Assembly: GCA_018242565.1 (NCBI GenBank)
Contig: JAFEBR010000142.1
Location: 1 to 35,521 of the forward strand
DNA length: 35,521 nucleotides
Source: Planctomycetota bacterium
Lineage (GTDB): Bacteria; Planctomycetota; Planctomycetia; Planctomycetales; Planctomycetaceae
Direction: 5' to 3'
The notes beneath the pieces are model-generated. The model worked only from the letters and a program-made list of their open reading frames with translations. It was not told the DNA's origin and ran no database searches. Within the stretch, counting starts at the first letter, position 1. Each line of letters begins with the position of its first letter. A program made the translations under genes and the position numbers. Below, piece by piece: positions 16,247 through 22,729 of this stretch.

Positions 16247-17746
16247 CTACGATTCGCCGCCAGCGGGTGGCTTGGGAGTGACCGCCGATGCGACGGTCTT
16301 GTGAATTGCCAGATTCAGCGACCGTAGTTTGGCACGCAAAGTCGGTCGGCTGATCCCCAAAATCTCGGCAGTCAAGGCCTGGTTCCCAGCCGCTTGCTTG
16401 AGCGCCCGCGGTACCAGCCAGCGGTCGAATTCATCGAGTGCCAGCCGGTAGATGCCGCGCTTATCTTCGGCCAACGCAACTTCTACCTGCTGCACCAGGT
16501 TAGACAAGTCATTGCCTTCCACCGGCAGTTGCGACATTTCGGTTTCCGGTTCGGTCGTCGACAAGTCAGCCGTCGGCGCACGCCGGATTTCCGCCGGCAG
16601 GAACCCGGGCAGAATCGTGGGGCCGACCGACACAATCAGCGACTCGCGAATGACACTCTGCAGTTCCCGCACATTGCCCGGCCAATGATAGGTCTGCAGC
16701 AGATCCAGGGCTTCTTCGGAAATCGACTGCACGGTTGTGCCGAGTTGGCGATTGAACCGGAACAGGAAGTAATGCGCCAGTTCGGCGATATCTTCACGCC
16801 GTTCGCGCAACGGCGGCAGGTGCAGCGTGACACCCCGCAGACGGTAGTACAGATCTTTGCGGAACCGGCCCGTTTCGATCTGCTCTTCGAGGTTCTGGTT
16901 CGTGGCGGCGATCACGCGCACATCCGCAGTCAGAATTTCGTTGCCACCAATCCGTTGGAACTGACCTTCCTGCAGCATGCGCAAAATTTTCGCCTGCGTG
17001 CCGGGCGCCATGTCCCCCACTTCATCGAGAAACAACGTCCCCCCGTTGCACTGCTCGAATTTCCCGATGCGGCAACGTTCGGCGCCGGTGAAGGCTCCGC
17101 GCTCGTGGCCGAACAGTTCACTTTCGAGCAGCGATTCGGGAATCGCCGCGCAATTGATCGCCAGGAACGGCGCCTGGTTGCGATGGCTGTGCTGAAACAG
17201 GGCCCGGGCCACCAGCTCTTTACCGGTGCCGCTTTCTCCCAGAATGAGCACGTTAACTTCCTGGGCGGCGACCCGACCGATCTGCTTGCAGACTCCCTGC
17301 ATGGCCGGCCCGCTGCCGATCAGCCGATCTGACATTTCGGTTTCACGACTGATCTGGTCGACCACCGCGGGAACATGCACCAGCCGACTGATATCGAGGG
17401 CCTGTTTGACCACGCTCCGCAGATGCTCGGCATCGAAGGGCTTGACCAGATAGTCGAACCCCCCGAGTTTCATGGCTTCGATGGCCGTATCCGCCGTGCT
17501 GTACCCGGTGATAAAGATCGCCAGGCATTTTGGATCCTGCTTGCGCAATTCCTGAAAGACGTCGAGCCCGGAAGCTCCATGCAGGCGGATATCCAGCAGA
17601 ACCACATCGGGCGCCTCGTCGGCAGCCAGCCGCAATCCTTCTTCTGCCGTCGCCGCCTCCAGGACGCGCAGGCCCTGTTGTTTGAAGACCTGCGCGACGC
17701 TGAAGCGAATATTCGGCTCGTCGTCAATGACAAGCAACTTTTGCAT
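16247..17746 (-). CDS. NtrC/AtoC-class sigma-54-dependent response regulator
   Basis: 499-residue transcription activator. Seen: an N-terminal receiver domain (residues 1-120) with acidic D8-D9, the phosphorylation site D52 (LLDIRL), and K102 in VKPFD; an AAA+ domain (about 141-375) with Walker A GESGTGKE (170-177), the sigma-54 contact loop GAFTGA (217-222), and Walker B GGTLFLDE; and a C-terminal Fis-type helix-turn-helix (LTAEILGISRPTLRAKLRSL). Presence of GAFTGA means it should activate sigma-54 promoters. The ATG has AAGGA just upstream and overlaps the end of the kinase gene by 23 bases, so the pair is co-translated. It sits between the SQR/channel operon and the ArsR/rhodanese block. 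Its targets are unknown; I found no convincing TGGCAC-N5-TTGC site in the window. Confidence 0.95.
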   Translation of the reverse strand: MQKLLVIDDEPNIRFSVAQVFKQQGLRVLEAATAEEGLRLAADEAPDVVLLDIRLHGASGLDVFQELRKQDPKCLAIFITGYSTADTAIEAMKLGGFDYLVKPFDAEHLRSVVKQALDISRLVHVPAVVDQISRETEMSDRLIGSGPAMQGVCKQIGRVAAQEVNVLILGESGTGKELVARALFQHSHRNQAPFLAINCAAIPESLLESELFGHERGAFTGAERCRIGKFEQCNGGTLFLDEVGDMAPGTQAKILRMLQEGQFQRIGGNEILTADVRVIAATNQNLEEQIETGRFRKDLYYRLRGVTLHLPPLRERREDIAELAHYFLFRFNRQLGTTVQSISEEALDLLQTYHWPGNVRELQSVIRESLIVSVGPTILPGFLPAEIRRAPTADLSTTEPETEMSQLPVEGNDLSNLVQQVEVALAEDKRGIYRLALDEFDRWLVPRALKQAAGNQALTAEILGISRPTLRAKLRSLNLAIHKTVASAVTPKPPAGGES

Positions 17747-19328
17747 CCGTTAGTTCCTTTCTGCTGCGATCGGTCTCGGCGTGAGCGGGCTCACTGCTGA
17801 CAGACCGGGTTGATATCGAAGACTCACTCGGGGCGGCAACCAGCCGTTGACTGGCGGATAACTCCACCGTGAAGATGGCGCCGCCGGTTGGACGATTGGC
17901 AGCGGTGATTGTGCCCCCATGCTCGTGCACGATGCGTCGGGTGACGGCCAGGCCGAGTCCGATGCCTCGCGTTTTCGTAGTGACAAAGGGATCGAAGATC
18001 GATTCCAGCCGATCGGGCGCGATCCCTTCGCCCGAGTCGGAAACAGTGACTTTCACACGACCAGCGCTGTCCGCCGGCTCGGCCACGACTTCGAGGATCC
18101 CGCCATTGCGCATCGCGTCGATCCCGTTGATCAGCAGATTGGAGAACACCTGGTGGAGCAGTTCGGGATCTCCGTTGATGGTCACTGGACTGTCGGGAAA
18201 CCGAGCCCGCAGCGCGACCTGATGAAACCGCGCGCGGCCTTCGACCAGGTTCAGGGCCCGCTGCACCGTCGAACGCAAATCATGCTCCAGTGTCCGCAAC
18301 ACCGGGGGCCGGGCGAAATCCAGGAGTCCCTGAATCGTCTCTTCGATGCGCAGGATCTCCTGCAGAACAACTTTCAATTGCTGCCCGTCGAGTTCAATGC
18401 CCCCCTGGGGCGTCTCGGTCGCCGTCTGCACCAGCAGTTTGACCGAAGTCAGGGGATTGCGAATTTCATGGGCGACGCCGGCGGCCAGGCCCCCCACCAC
18501 GGCCAGTCGCTCGGCCGCCATCGCCTCTTGACGGGCAATATTCAGTTCGGTCAGTACCTGCCGAATCTGGGCCGAGACGACTCTCACCTGCTCATTAATG
18601 AGTCCCAAGTCGTCGGTATCGCCGCTGGGAACGATTTCAAAACGGCCGATCTCCTGTTTGAGGTCGCCCGAGGCATCTTTAAGCGTCACGCTGATCTGCG
18701 ACATTGAGTGCTGCAGATTCTTGGCAATGCGCCACCCCACCCAGAGCCCCAGCCCCGGTCCAAGAATCAGCAGGCCGAATCGCCCGACGTTGAAGGTGCG
18801 CTCCATCGACTCGCGACGTGTGACCGCTTCGCTCATCAATTGTTCGTTCAGCGTGGCCAGCCGGGTGCAGGTGGCAGACACCTGGTAGGCCATTTGTGTC
18901 GTCTGGTTGACGGTCTCGGATAACTCGACCGGCGAAACCGGTTGCCGTTCCAGCCGCTGATGCAGGGCCTGCCGATAGTGGACGAATTGTTCGCGAATCT
19001 CCTGTACGACAGCATGTTCTGCCGAAATCACGGACAATTCTTGAGCCAGCTCGACATTCTGCAGGAACTCGCGTTCGAGACTGTCCAATTCTTCGGTCTG
19101 TCTCTTGAATTCCGAAACATCGGGTTCGGTCAGGGCATCGAGGAACTCGGTCTGCAGTTTCCACAACAGTTCCTGCATGCTGCCGGCCACCTCGATCGAC
19201 TTGACGTATTGATCGAGAATGCGGGCGTTCGATTTCATCAGCCAGAAAATGAACACCGTAGTCGCAGCACTGGTGGACAGCCAGAAAAAGGCCATCAACA
19301 ACAGTGGTCCGACAATTCTCTTCCACAT
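17724..19328 (-). CDS. Membrane-bound sensor histidine kinase (NtrB/ZraS-like)
   Basis: 534-residue kinase, partner of the NtrC-type regulator. Seen: transmembrane helix 1 (about residues 8-31), a periplasmic helical sensor region of about 150 residues with one Cys (C154), transmembrane helix 2 (about 183-200), a HAMP-like linker, the dimerisation/H-box with H287 in GVAHEIRNPLTSVK, and a HATPase domain with N box (NLLINGIDAM), G1 (DSGEGIAP) and G2 (TRGIGLGLAVT). A Ser/Arg-rich tail follows. ATG 19328 has AAGGA at seven bases. The periplasmic signal is unknown; the helical four-helix-bundle-like sensor resembles those of chemotaxis receptors and ZraS-type kinases. It heads a two-gene operon, kinase first. 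Confidence 0.93.
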   Translation of the reverse strand: MWKRIVGPLLLMAFFWLSTSAATTVFIFWLMKSNARILDQYVKSIEVAGSMQELLWKLQTEFLDALTEPDVSEFKRQTEELDSLEREFLQNVELAQELSVISAEHAVVQEIREQFVHYRQALHQRLERQPVSPVELSETVNQTTQMAYQVSATCTRLATLNEQLMSEAVTRRESMERTFNVGRFGLLILGPGLGLWVGWRIAKNLQHSMSQISVTLKDASGDLKQEIGRFEIVPSGDTDDLGLINEQVRVVSAQIRQVLTELNIARQEAMAAERLAVVGGLAAGVAHEIRNPLTSVKLLVQTATETPQGGIELDGQQLKVVLQEILRIEETIQGLLDFARPPVLRTLEHDLRSTVQRALNLVEGRARFHQVALRARFPDSPVTINGDPELLHQVFSNLLINGIDAMRNGGILEVVAEPADSAGRVKVTVSDSGEGIAPDRLESIFDPFVTTKTRGIGLGLAVTRRIVHEHGGTITAANRPTGGAIFTVELSASQRLVAAPSESSISTRSVSSEPAHAETDRSRKELTDAKVACH

Positions 19329-19987
19329 ACCGGTGTCCTTATCTCCGCCAGAGGATCCTGGCGTGGCCGATTCGGCCTGCTTTTCAGACCGCTGTCGCTT
19401 TTTTGCAGTCTGGTTGAGACAACGTCCACTCCCGGAAATCGGTACACGAAATCCAAGACAGACGGATTCGGCGGGAGATCACTCAAATCCCGCCTGCCCC
19501 ACTTTACATCACGTTCCGACCGCTCGCGTGATCAACCCGCTTCCAGGGATGTCCGCATCACCGCAAACAAATTTGACATGCAACTGCAACGAGCATTACC
19601 GCCGAGCTGTGCACTGGGTTTTCCTCGACGCCAAGTCCAGAAGCCATCCCCATTCCGTCTGGGGAAACAGACAGTCCGAGTTCGAAATTGGTCTTTCTGA
19701 TTCCAAGGAAACCGGAATTCTCAATGATGCGGGAAACTGCCTGACCGAGACAATTCTCTTGTCAACTTCAAATCAAGCAAAGGATGTGCCGTGGTCCATC
19801 CGGGCGATTTCGAATTCAGAGAACCGCCATAACAATATGTTATCAATTACTTTACGAATTTTCGATTCGTAAGTCAGACAGGAGTCGCGGGGGAAAGTCT
19901 GATAAGCGATCTTTCCACGTAGACAAACAAACTTCCTGAGACGTTTTTCTTTCCTGCCTGGACATCGGAATCCTCAAAAACATTAAA
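19329..19987. repeat. Long intergenic region with an 8-bp inverted repeat
   Basis: About 660 bases between the kinase start and the arsR promoter, with AT content rising toward the right end. No gene is supported; open frames here have no ribosome-binding site or family features. It contains TTACGAAT (19852-19859) and ATTCGTAA (19865-19872) as a perfect 8-bp inverted repeat with a 5-base centre, beside an AACA-ATA-TGTT element. This looks like a transcription-factor site or a small RNA hairpin. The kinase promoter must also lie here but was not located. Confidence 0.4.
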
Positions 19988-20015
19988 TTGACATGTCGCG
20001 ACTTTCCGATATATT
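19988..20015 (+). promoter_or_regulatory. Strong sigma-70-type promoter of the ArsR gene
   Basis: TTGACA (19988-19993, perfect -35) and TATATT (20010-20015, -10) with a 16-base spacer. A second -10 reading, TATTAT (20012-20017), gives 18. Transcription would begin near 20022, leaving only about 18 bases of leader before the ATG. This is the best housekeeping promoter in the window. The spacer is almost filled by a putative operator. Confidence 0.8.
19995..20009 (+). promoter_or_regulatory. Putative ArsR operator in the promoter spacer
   Basis: The 15-mer GTCGCGACTTTCCGA lies exactly between the -35 and -10 boxes. It matches 13 of 15 bases with the copy at 20378-20392. The core GTCGCGAC is a palindrome. 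The position would block RNA polymerase, as expected for autoregulation by an ArsR-family repressor. The repeat is seen directly; binding is inferred. Confidence 0.5.
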
Positions 20016-20039
20016 ATTCAGACAGAGCGAGAACCGCAG

Positions 20040-20351
20040 ATGACCACAAAAGCAGCCTCTACCTTAACGGACCTGAATGCCCTGGCGGAAGCCGCGGAGT
20101 GCCTGAAAACACTGGCCCATCCGCATCGCCTGCGAATGATTCAAATGTTGATTCGCGGTCGGTACACGGTTGGTGAACTGGCCGAAGCCTGCGGCATTCC
20201 CAGCCACATGGCCTCCGAGCATTTACGGCTGATGCAGCGCTGCGGTTTCCTGGCGAGCGAAAAAGAAGGCCGCAAGGCCTACTACCAGATCGCCGAACCG
20301 CACCTGATCAGCCTGATGAACTGTGTCGAAACGCGATTTGGAATCGCGTGA
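20040..20351 (+). CDS. ArsR/SmtB-family transcriptional repressor
   Basis: 103-residue winged-helix repressor. Seen: TLAHPHRLRMIQML (helix 2-3 region), the recognition helix IPSHMASEHLRLMQ, the beta-wing ASEKEGRKAYYQIA, and cysteines at 21 (AECLK, helix 1), 51, 68 and 95 (MNCVETRFG, last helix). The canonical ArsR metal box ELCVCDL is absent. C21 and C95 lie in the two helices that meet at the dimer interface, so a redox or persulfide switch is possible, as in SqrR/BigR/YgaV, but the Cys positions are not the same as in those proteins. ATG 20040 has only a weak GAG-type site. The gene is followed by a rhodanese and a persulfide reductase, so it probably controls them. In E. coli the comparable pair is ygaV-ygaP. 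Confidence 0.9.
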   Translation: MTTKAASTLTDLNALAEAAECLKTLAHPHRLRMIQMLIRGRYTVGELAEACGIPSHMASEHLRLMQRCGFLASEKEGRKAYYQIAEPHLISLMNCVETRFGIA

Positions 20352-20377
20352 GATTTTTTATTCAATCGTGTCGAACG

Positions 20378-20392
20378 GTCGCGACATTTCGA
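20378..20392 (+). promoter_or_regulatory. Second copy of the putative ArsR operator
   Basis: GTCGCGACATTTCGA matches 13 of 15 bases with the element in the arsR promoter and lies in the 116-base gap before the rhodanese gene. A further partial copy, CTTTCCGA, follows at 20403-20410. No clear promoter is visible in this gap, so the site may act on read-through or on a promoter I cannot recognise. Confidence 0.45.
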
Positions 20393-20467
20393 GGCATTTT
20401 CGCTTTCCGAACACGTGACCCCAGGACGGGTAGACCCTGACCGACTGCCCCCAGAAAGGAATTCTCC

Positions 20468-21028
20468 ATGAGCATCACGACCATGACTCCGAAACAACTG
20501 GCTGAACTGGTTCAAGCGGGACGCAAGATCGATCTGATCGATGTGCGAACACCGGTGGAATTCCGGGAAGTGCACGTCGAATTCGCCCGCAACGTCCCTC
20601 TCGATCAACTCAACCCGGCCGCCTGTCTGCAATCCCGGCAAGGTGCCGCCGATGATCCAGTTTACGTTCTCTGTCGCTCTGGCAGCCGAGGCAAACAGGC
20701 CTGCGAGATATTTCATCAGGCCGGGATCACGAATGTCGTCAACATCGAAGGCGGCACACTGGCGTGTGTCGCCGCAGGACTGCCTGTCGTACGCGGGAAA
20801 AAGGCCATTTCGCTGGAACGTCAGGTGCGGATCGTCGCGGGCGCCATGGTGCTGACCGGAGCCGTTTTGGGGGCCTTCGTCCACATTGGTTTCGTGGGAC
20901 TCTCGGCTTTTGTGGGTGCGGGGCTGATCTGTGCTGGAGTAACTGATACGTGCGGCATGGCGATGATTCTGGCCCGTATGCCCTGGAATCAGTGTGACAC
21001 AGGCACGCCAAAGTGCGCGACGACCTAA
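20468..21028 (+). CDS. Membrane-anchored rhodanese (YgaP-like sulfurtransferase)
   Basis: 186-residue protein fusing a rhodanese domain to a DUF2892-type membrane module. Seen: residues 7-108 form the rhodanese domain, with DVRTPVEFREVHV and the active-site loop C69-R-S-G-S-R; then two transmembrane helices (about 120-140 and 143-160) and a short Cys-containing tail (DTCGMAMILARMPWN, QCDTGTPKC). YgaP of E. coli has the same layout and transfers sulfane sulfur at the membrane. ATG 20468 has AAAGGA about nine bases upstream. It is preceded by the ArsR gene and followed after 48 bases by the reductase-rhodanese gene, so the three probably form one regulon. The soluble domain faces the cytoplasm in YgaP, and the same is expected here. 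Confidence 0.92.
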   Translation: MSITTMTPKQLAELVQAGRKIDLIDVRTPVEFREVHVEFARNVPLDQLNPAACLQSRQGAADDPVYVLCRSGSRGKQACEIFHQAGITNVVNIEGGTLACVAAGLPVVRGKKAISLERQVRIVAGAMVLTGAVLGAFVHIGFVGLSAFVGAGLICAGVTDTCGMAMILARMPWNQCDTGTPKCATT

Positions 21029-21076
21029 TGCGACCTGCCCCGACGACTGACTTCCTGACATCCTGGAATGACTTTT

Positions 21077-22729
21077 ATGAAACTACTTATCGTGGGTGGC
21101 GTGGCGGGAGGAGCTTCCGCCGCTGCCCGTGCACGCCGCCTGTCGGAGTCTGCCGAGATCATCGTTTTCGAACGCGGCCCCGATGTCTCATTCGCCAATT
21201 GCGGACTGCCCTATTACGTAAGCGGTGAAATCGCCGAGCGGAGCAAGTTGCTGGTCACCACGCCCGAACAACTCCGCACGCGTTTTCGACTCGATGTACG
21301 GACTCGCACGTCAGTGGAAGCCATTGACCGCTCGGCGAAAACCGTGCGGGTGCGCGACCTGGCAAGCGGCCGTGAATATACGGAATCGTACGACAAACTG
21401 CTCCTGGCTCCGGGTGCGGCACCCGTCCGTCCGCCTCTGCCCGGCAGTGACCTGCCCCACATCCACACACTCCGCAATCTGCACGACATCGATCGGATCA
21501 AAGCGCGAGCCGATGAGGGAATACGGCAGGTCGTGCTGTTGGGAGCCGGGTTTATCAATCTGGAACTGGCCGAGAATTTCGTCCGGCGGGGAATCGCCAC
21601 GACCCTCGTCGAGCGGAATCAGCAGATTCTGCCCCCTTTCGATCGGGAAATGACCTCACCCATCGCCGAACAACTCACCGCCACCGGGGTGACCTTGATC
21701 CTGGGCGATTCGGCCGAAGGATTCGAAGCCACGCCGGATGGACTTTCGGTCAAGCTGGCTTCGGGCCGACAACTGCCGGCGCAGCTGGTTGTAATCGGTA
21801 TCGGCGTGCGACCCGAAAATAAACTGGCGGTCGATGCAGGACTGTCGGTCGGACCGCGGGGCGGCATTCAGGTGAATGCCCATCTGCAGACCGCCGACCC
21901 CGATATCTACGCCGTGGGCGACGCCATCGAAGTCCAGGATTTTGTCTCGGGCAATACGGTGCAGGTACCATTGGCCGGCCCGGCCAATCGCCAGGGACGA
22001 ATTGCCGCCGACAATATCTTCGGCCGCTCAGTGACCTATCGTGGCACGCAGGGAACCGCCATCCTGGGATACTTCGACCGCACGGCGGCCATCACGGGTG
22101 CATCGGAAAAGAGCCTCATTCAGGCCAAACGTCCGTATCGTAAGGTCTATATTCATCCAGCGCACCACGCCGGTTATTACCCGGGCGCCCAGGCGATGAG
22201 CCTGAAAGTGCTGTTTGCACCCGACACTGGGAAATTGCTGGGTGCCCAGGGAGTGGGGGGAGCCGGCGTCGATAAGCGGATCGATGTTCTGGCCGTCGCC
22301 ATACAAGCGGGGTTGACGGTCTTCGATCTCGAAGAGATGGAACTGGCGTATTCCCCACAATTCGGTTCGGCTAAAGATCCGATCAACATGGCCGGCTTTG
22401 TCGCCGGGGGACTCATCCGCGGTGATCACCCGCAAATTGACGTCGAGTCCGTTTTGAACGGTACAGCCGCCGATCGCCCCTGCTTGATCGACGTCCGGAC
22501 GCCGAAAGAGTTCTCGGCCGGTCACATCCCGGGCGCGAAGAACATTCCCGTCGATGAACTCCGCGAACGGATCGGCGAACTGCCTCGCGACCAGCAGATC
22601 GCCGTGTACTGTCAGGTCGGTCAGCGGGGCTACCTGGCAACACGCATTCTGCGGCAGTCGGGTTTCAACGTGGCAAACATCGGCGGTGGGTACAAAACCT
22701 ATCGACTGCATGTTCCCGCGACGAGCTGA
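21077..22729 (+). CDS. CoA-disulfide/persulfide reductase-rhodanese fusion (Npsr-like)
   Basis: About 550 residues. FAD/NAD(P)H pyridine-nucleotide disulfide oxidoreductase joined to a C-terminal rhodanese domain, as in CoADR-RHD and Npsr enzymes that reduce CoA disulfide, CoA persulfide and polysulfide to release sulfide. Seen: the FAD motif LIVGGVAGGASAAARAR at the N-terminus; the single active Cys42 in SFANCGLPYY (Cys43 in CoA-disulfide reductase); a second nucleotide motif VVLLGAGFINLELAE; IYAVGDAIEV; a dimerisation domain with HPAHHAGYYPGA; and a rhodanese domain from about residue 455 with CLIDVRTPKEF and active loop C512-Q-V-G-Q-R. ATG 21077 puts the Rossmann strand at the usual distance; ATG 21068, three codons earlier, is also open and neither has a strong ribosome-binding site. 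Confidence 0.92.
   Translation: MKLLIVGGVAGGASAAARARRLSESAEIIVFERGPDVSFANCGLPYYVSGEIAERSKLLVTTPEQLRTRFRLDVRTRTSVEAIDRSAKTVRVRDLASGREYTESYDKLLLAPGAAPVRPPLPGSDLPHIHTLRNLHDIDRIKARADEGIRQVVLLGAGFINLELAENFVRRGIATTLVERNQQILPPFDREMTSPIAEQLTATGVTLILGDSAEGFEATPDGLSVKLASGRQLPAQLVVIGIGVRPENKLAVDAGLSVGPRGGIQVNAHLQTADPDIYAVGDAIEVQDFVSGNTVQVPLAGPANRQGRIAADNIFGRSVTYRGTQGTAILGYFDRTAAITGASEKSLIQAKRPYRKVYIHPAHHAGYYPGAQAMSLKVLFAPDTGKLLGAQGVGGAGVDKRIDVLAVAIQAGLTVFDLEEMELAYSPQFGSAKDPINMAGFVAGGLIRGDHPQIDVESVLNGTAADRPCLIDVRTPKEFSAGHIPGAKNIPVDELRERIGELPRDQQIAVYCQVGQRGYLATRILRQSGFNVANIGGGYKTYRLHVPATS

Follow-up and report, generated by a model that had tools for sequence, protein, structure and literature searches.

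A second operator and a phased T-tract downstream of arsR suggest two-layer control of sulfur genes by one repressor in Planctomycetota

An autoregulated repressor that keeps enzymes silent must cope with leaky expression of its operon. The window analyzed here, the whole 35,521-nucleotide stretch of DNA from a Planctomycetota genome, carries such a candidate, an arsR gene followed by genes for a rhodanese and a CoA-disulfide reductase-like flavoprotein (Table 1). An earlier sequence-only reading had noted a 15-bp motif that fills the spacer of the arsR promoter and recurs in the gap before the rhodanese gene, and had proposed an autoregulated repressor that also controls the next genes. Both sites are examined here by comparison with related loci.

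Table 1. Positions of the predicted regulatory elements and genes at the arsR locus of the window
Feature	Position	Strand	Remarks
arsR promoter	19988..20015	+	-35 TTGACA (19988-19993), 16-bp spacer, -10 TATATT (20010-20015)
O1, primary ArsR operator (predicted)	19993..20012		window ATGTCGCGACTTTCCGATAT; consensus ATRTCGNNAYRTNNCGAYAT; matrix score 23.5
arsR	20040..20351	+	103-aa ArsR/SmtB-family winged-helix repressor; Pfam HTH_5/HTH_20, NCBIfam HTH_metalloreg
Hairpin ACGCGATT-TGG-AATCGCGT	20331..20349	+	end of arsR into the stop codon; 4 nt before the T-tract
arsR stop codon TGA	20349-20351	+	
T6 tract (U-tract in RNA)	20354..20359	+	2 nt past the arsR stop codon, 8 nt before O2
O2 register a (predicted second ArsR operator)	20368..20387		GTGTCGAACGGTCGCGACAT; score 10.1, best register
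O2 register b	20376..20395		8 bp downstream of register a; TCG-N8-CGA; includes the 15-mer at 20378-20392; score -5.7
Rhodanese with YgaP-like transmembrane domain	20468..21028	+	Pfam PF00581 and PF11127; proposed gated gene 1
CoA-disulfide reductase-like flavoprotein with C-terminal rhodanese domain	21077..22729	+	Pfam Pyr_redox_2 and Rhodanese; proposed gated gene 2

The repressor and the operator in its promoter

Domain searches placed the repressor in the ArsR/SmtB family, with PF01022 and PF12840 above cut-off and HTH_metalloreg at 78 bits (cut-off 55), and in a fold search with the predicted model (pLDDT 92) SmtB chains were the best matches (TM about 0.8). The CoA-disulfide reductase-like product resembles TIGR03385 at a score below the cut-off. 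An Rfam scan of positions 19700-21200 gave no match at gathering score. A histidine kinase and a sigma-54-activator response regulator, encoded as a pair at 16247-19328 on the reverse strand, adjoin the arsR operon and read away from it.

The hexamers of the arsR promoter match at 11 of 12 positions in the promoter scan of the window, and relatives keep both the hexamers and their spacing. The sequence-only reading had placed GTCGCGACTTTCCGA (19995-20009) exactly between the -35 and -10 elements, and a position check confirmed this. The conserved core, however, is wider than the 15-mer: it is a 20-bp palindrome, termed O1, that extends into the 3' end of the -35 element and into the start of the -10 element, the layout of an operator that blocks initiation. 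A predicted palindromic operator overlapping the repressor's own promoter, as is typical of the ArsR/SmtB family, is present.

Genome collections (80 loci) and whole genomes were searched for relatives of the repressor. Of 94 distinct arsR loci, 93 carried the block TTGACATRTCGNNAYRTNNCGATATAWT upstream of arsR, with TCG and CGA each conserved in 93/93, the central A in 92/93 and T in 90/93. Among 59 further arsR loci held out from training, for which the matrix and the spacing rule had been fixed beforehand and which were scored once, O1 was found in 53. The operator is therefore kept beside orthologous arsR genes, and the lack of conservation that the sequence-only reading had named as evidence against itself was not observed. 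The 15-mer taken alone is not rare: allowing up to three mismatches it occurred nine times in the window, compared with 12.25 expected from shuffles, and the genome held 285 matches at up to two mismatches, of which only the two arsR-locus sites had none. Window and genome counts thus leave the 15-mer undecided, and its significance derives from conservation in relatives. Autoregulation through O1 is strongly supported by these sequence comparisons; ArsR dimers would bind O1 and block initiation.

A second operator and a T-tract between arsR and the rhodanese gene

The 100 bases 3' of each arsR stop codon were scored with a symmetric weight matrix derived exclusively from O1 sites. A score of at least 4 was reached in 57% of 90 gaps, compared with 0.13% of 1540 random 100-bp windows from the same loci. 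When the training set was enlarged to 105 gaps, 73 scored at least -3, and in random windows a score of 0, which is stricter than -3, was reached in 1.0%. The hold-out loci gave an O2 site in 39 of 58 gaps at a score of at least 4 and in 44 of 58 at a score of at least -3. Training and hold-out sets together comprised 117 loci with O2, while 45 of 163, about a quarter, were without it. O2 starts within the transcribed region, at a distance of 14-48 bp from the stop codon of arsR, and in most O2 loci the first gene after arsR encodes a rhodanese.

An additional half-site, CGA, was found at +22 to +24 in 62% and 54% of the sites in two O2 classes and in 0% at O1. This identifies O2 of the relatives as a double, overlapping operator and explains both registers in the window, where O2 fits the matrix less well than O1 and has C in place of the central A. 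The second copy reported by the sequence-only reading, GTCGCGACATTTCGA, was correctly located and is part of this conserved double operator, but it represents the weaker register (-5.7 versus 10.1). The partial third copy proposed at 20403 was rejected, because its half-sites are spaced TCG-N5-CGA rather than TCG-N8-CGA and it scored -23. As judged from sequence, the assignment of the predicted O1 and O2 sites as operators is strong.

The gap between the arsR stop codon and O2 contained a run of five to eight T residues in 78 of the 117 O2 loci, and in 73 of these 78 the run ended 7-8 nt from O2 when the register shift was allowed for, the most frequent length being T7 (44 of 73), in counts taken over loci that share ancestry. 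In the training loci, at least five T residues were present in 40 of 73 O2 loci, and 34 of these 40 runs ended 7 or 8 nt from O2, compared with 5.5 expected by random placement in the same gaps and a maximum of 16 in 20,000 simulations. Runs of at least six T residues occurred in 36 of 73 gaps, compared with 2.6 expected when the gap letters were shuffled; elsewhere, 0.3% of 30-nt windows contained such a run. The runs were strand-specific (40 T-runs versus one A-run on the coding strand of the training loci), and the bases between the run and O2 were nearly unconserved (pair identity 0.35). In the hold-out set, 38 of 44 O2 loci had at least five T residues and 32 of these 38 showed the 7-8 nt spacing, while four loci at 15-16 nt have the same spacing to the other O2 register, 8 bp away. 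When 392 genomes of the phylum were searched separately for the pattern, with the gap left free between 0 and 30 nt, most matches showed the 7-8 nt arrangement (a gap of 10-11 to the TCG), and several of the remaining matches were O1-type promoter sites. The window conforms to this class, and a cultured relative, Aeoliella straminimaris, has the element as well.

A tree test of the linkage between O2 and the T-run gave five independent pairs on well-supported branches, too few for significance. Since the T-run is missing in 39 of the 117 O2 loci and O2 in 45 of 163 loci, neither element is indispensable. In the O2 loci without a T-run (for example L044, L046, L058, L063 and L080) the gap is often longer, C-rich and G-poor (38% C, 18% G); such a gap might suit Rho, as if replacing the T-tract.

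Possible modes of action of the second operator

The layout of O2 differs from that of O1. The promoter scan of the window found only the O1 promoter and no sigma-70-like match at O2, and relatives showed no conserved promoter hexamers there. To the extent that sequence can tell, O2 would thus be a repressor site within a transcribed region without a promoter of its own, the situation expected for a roadblock to elongation. These observations bear directly on the alternative that O2 represses a second promoter serving the rhodanese operon apart from arsR. Such a promoter would be well placed, with the rhodanese gene close behind O2, and a TAANAT-like hexamer within O2 (T-A-A-N-A-T, positions 6-11) loosely resembles a -10 element and could be a weak one; however, the TTGACA/TATAAT frame of O1 is lost around O2, no other hexamer is conserved, and the T-run, which has no G, would make a poor -35 element about 14 bp from the candidate -10. 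We therefore consider a second promoter unlikely.

Alternatively, arsR might end in an ordinary intrinsic terminator, to which the operator lies close only incidentally. The window itself offers some basis for this, since a perfect 8-bp hairpin (-11.6 kcal/mol, z -1.85) together with the T6 tract was called terminator-like. A stable hairpin right before the T-tract, which an intrinsic terminator requires, was nevertheless seen in the window with a 4-nt gap and showed no clear enrichment among relatives; there the hairpin before the T-run was not conserved as a class, its mean energy being -6.0 kcal/mol versus -5.0 in shuffles. In addition, the position of the T-run had a standard deviation of 2.3 nt relative to O2 and of 7.3 nt relative to the stop codon, indicating that the run tracks O2 and not the stop codon, and runs of at least six T residues followed the stop codon in 58% of loci with O2 versus 13% of those without. 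An independent terminator is quite improbable on these grounds.

Similarly improbable is the proposal that O2 and its A/T-tract serve DNA looping or cooperative high-affinity binding with O1, which would tighten repression at the promoter rather than control elongation. The double operator and the ability of A-tracts to bend DNA speak for it. Against this, the distance between O1 and O2, 375 bp in the window, varies in relatives with the length of arsR and of the gap, the coding strand invariably carries the T residues of the tract, and ArsR-family proteins are dimers that are not known to form loops. A chance resemblance of site 2 in the window's genome is scarcely credible: mismatched copies of the 15-mer are common and O2 of the window is a mediocre match, but its position, T-tract and spacing match a class of 117 loci.

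The absence of a recognizable promoter at O2, the double operator and the T-tract at a fixed distance favor a gate within the operon over a second repressed promoter, and all three go beyond what the sequence-only reading had described. We consider it probable that one repressor exerts two layers of control, namely repression of the promoter at O1 and a roadblock/termination gate at O2 before the sulfur genes. ArsR bound to the double operator would obstruct elongating RNA polymerase as a roadblock that can be removed, and a polymerase halted at O2 would have its active center within the T-tract, which lies 9-15 bp before the edge of the operator. The rU:dA hybrid is the least stable kind, so that a polymerase stopped there by ArsR would be prone to backtrack and to release its transcript, perhaps with the help of Mfd. 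At the locus in the window, the hairpin in which arsR ends may contribute to termination. Without inducer, a short arsR message and little rhodanese or CoA-disulfide reductase-rhodanese would be made; inducer would free ArsR, and O1 and O2 would open together.

The gate is made likely by the position of the T-tract at -15 to -9 from the O2 edge, which is where a roadblocked polymerase would halt; when bacterial polymerase meets bound EcoRI E111Q, its active center comes to rest about 12-13 bp short of the EcoRI site (PMC3913778). ArsR is included among listed roadblock proteins (PMC10310618), and in E. coli most polymerase stalled at roadblocks is cleared by Mfd (PMC4132739). Counting against the roadblock model, yeast RNA polymerase I released no RNA at a roadblock with T-rich DNA when no hairpin was present (PMC12366685), and the upstream RNA hairpin that such release calls for is strong in the window and weak on average in relatives.

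In summary, the observation of the sequence-only reading was partly confirmed and its interpretation partly supported. Its proposal of an autoregulated repressor that also controls the next genes is well supported at the sequence level, the same operator being predicted in the promoter and in the arsR-rhodanese gap of many relatives.

Related systems and the likely signal

Elongation roadblocks formed by LacI, PurR, CcpA and CodY (PMC10310618, PMC4132739) share with the proposed gate a repressor bound 3' of the transcription start that stops polymerase, and stalled polymerase is removed by Mfd. In the literature searched, no protein roadblock was found that has a dedicated T-tract where polymerase stalls. 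RNA polymerase I terminators (Reb1/Nsi1/TTF1, PMC12366685) have, like the planctomycete loci, a T-rich tract on the coding strand at a set distance before the roadblock site, about 15 bp in their case; they are eukaryotic and constitutive and need a hairpin for fast release, whereas the planctomycete roadblock would be a repressor released by a ligand. The evidence is about evenly balanced on whether the arrangement is a natural, bacterial, ligand-controlled counterpart of such a terminator, conserved across Planctomycetota, in which polymerase would halt on a T7 tract placed 7-8 nt before the ArsR-bound double operator and the repressor would thereby gate termination between a regulator and its targets. 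In engineered arsR circuits of E. coli (Stocker 2003; Merulla 2013, PMC3918153), a second ArsR operator placed between arsR and the reporter likewise lowers uninduced background expression. Those circuits are artificial, while the planctomycete arrangement is natural and conserved across the phylum and has a double operator and a T-tract at fixed spacing.

The closest gene arrangement is that of E. coli YgaV-YgaP, of the SqrR/BigR type, in which an autorepressing ArsR protein precedes a rhodanese with a YgaP-like membrane domain and a sulfide response is reported; in the portion of that source consulted, control is at the promoter, and neither a downstream operator nor a T-tract is described (PMC9774250). 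YgaV uses Cys31 and Cys98, whereas planctomycete ArsR has Cys21, Cys51, Cys68 and Cys95, which are 96-100% conserved in its clade and sit, in the predicted model, on helices 1, 3 and 5 and just past helix 4. Classification as a SqrR/BigR/YgaV persulfide sensor by sequence was rejected, as the first sensing cysteine of BigR aligns with Q35, the four conserved cysteines differ from the sensing pair of BigR and SqrR, and the NCBIfam BigR model gave 49.5 bits against a cut-off of 155. The literature searched held nothing that joins ArsR, rhodanese, CoA-disulfide reductase and an operator.

Gene context nevertheless suggests that this repressor controls sulfur or persulfide genes, as in the SqrR/BigR/YgaV group. 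Neighbors of the relatives' loci include genes for a metallo-beta-lactamase-rhodanese fusion (persulfide-dioxygenase-like) and a TauE exporter. Moreover, the operator-promoter unit was found directly before a rhodanese-YgaP gene without an intervening arsR (L145, 1430-1600, reverse strand) and before a DsrE/DsrF-like gene of the DsrE family (L153, around 1501-1666), which are, by sequence, candidate targets regulated in trans. A further target in the window's own genome was sought and rejected, the sole other one-mismatch site (C380, L172) lying inside a 523-codon open reading frame. In a Blastopirellula metagenome-assembled genome, a caspase-like (Peptidase_C14) gene lies 3' of the operon (L015, 7231-8172). 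Both the sulfur gene neighbors and the operator before sulfur genes point to sulfane sulfur or persulfide as the signal, and we infer that an inducer of this kind most likely acts on the conserved cysteines.

In conclusion, a second operator together with a T-tract at the stall site would permit a little repressor to be made without enzyme, and one signal would open both gates. Engineers of arsenic biosensors made a crude version of this device; the planctomycete version looks natural and has an added T-tract that marks the stall point. Transcript ends can be predicted from the model with a precision of a few bases, and the arrangement could serve as a portable, low-leak switch; the operator provides a sulfur regulon motif for Planctomycetota.
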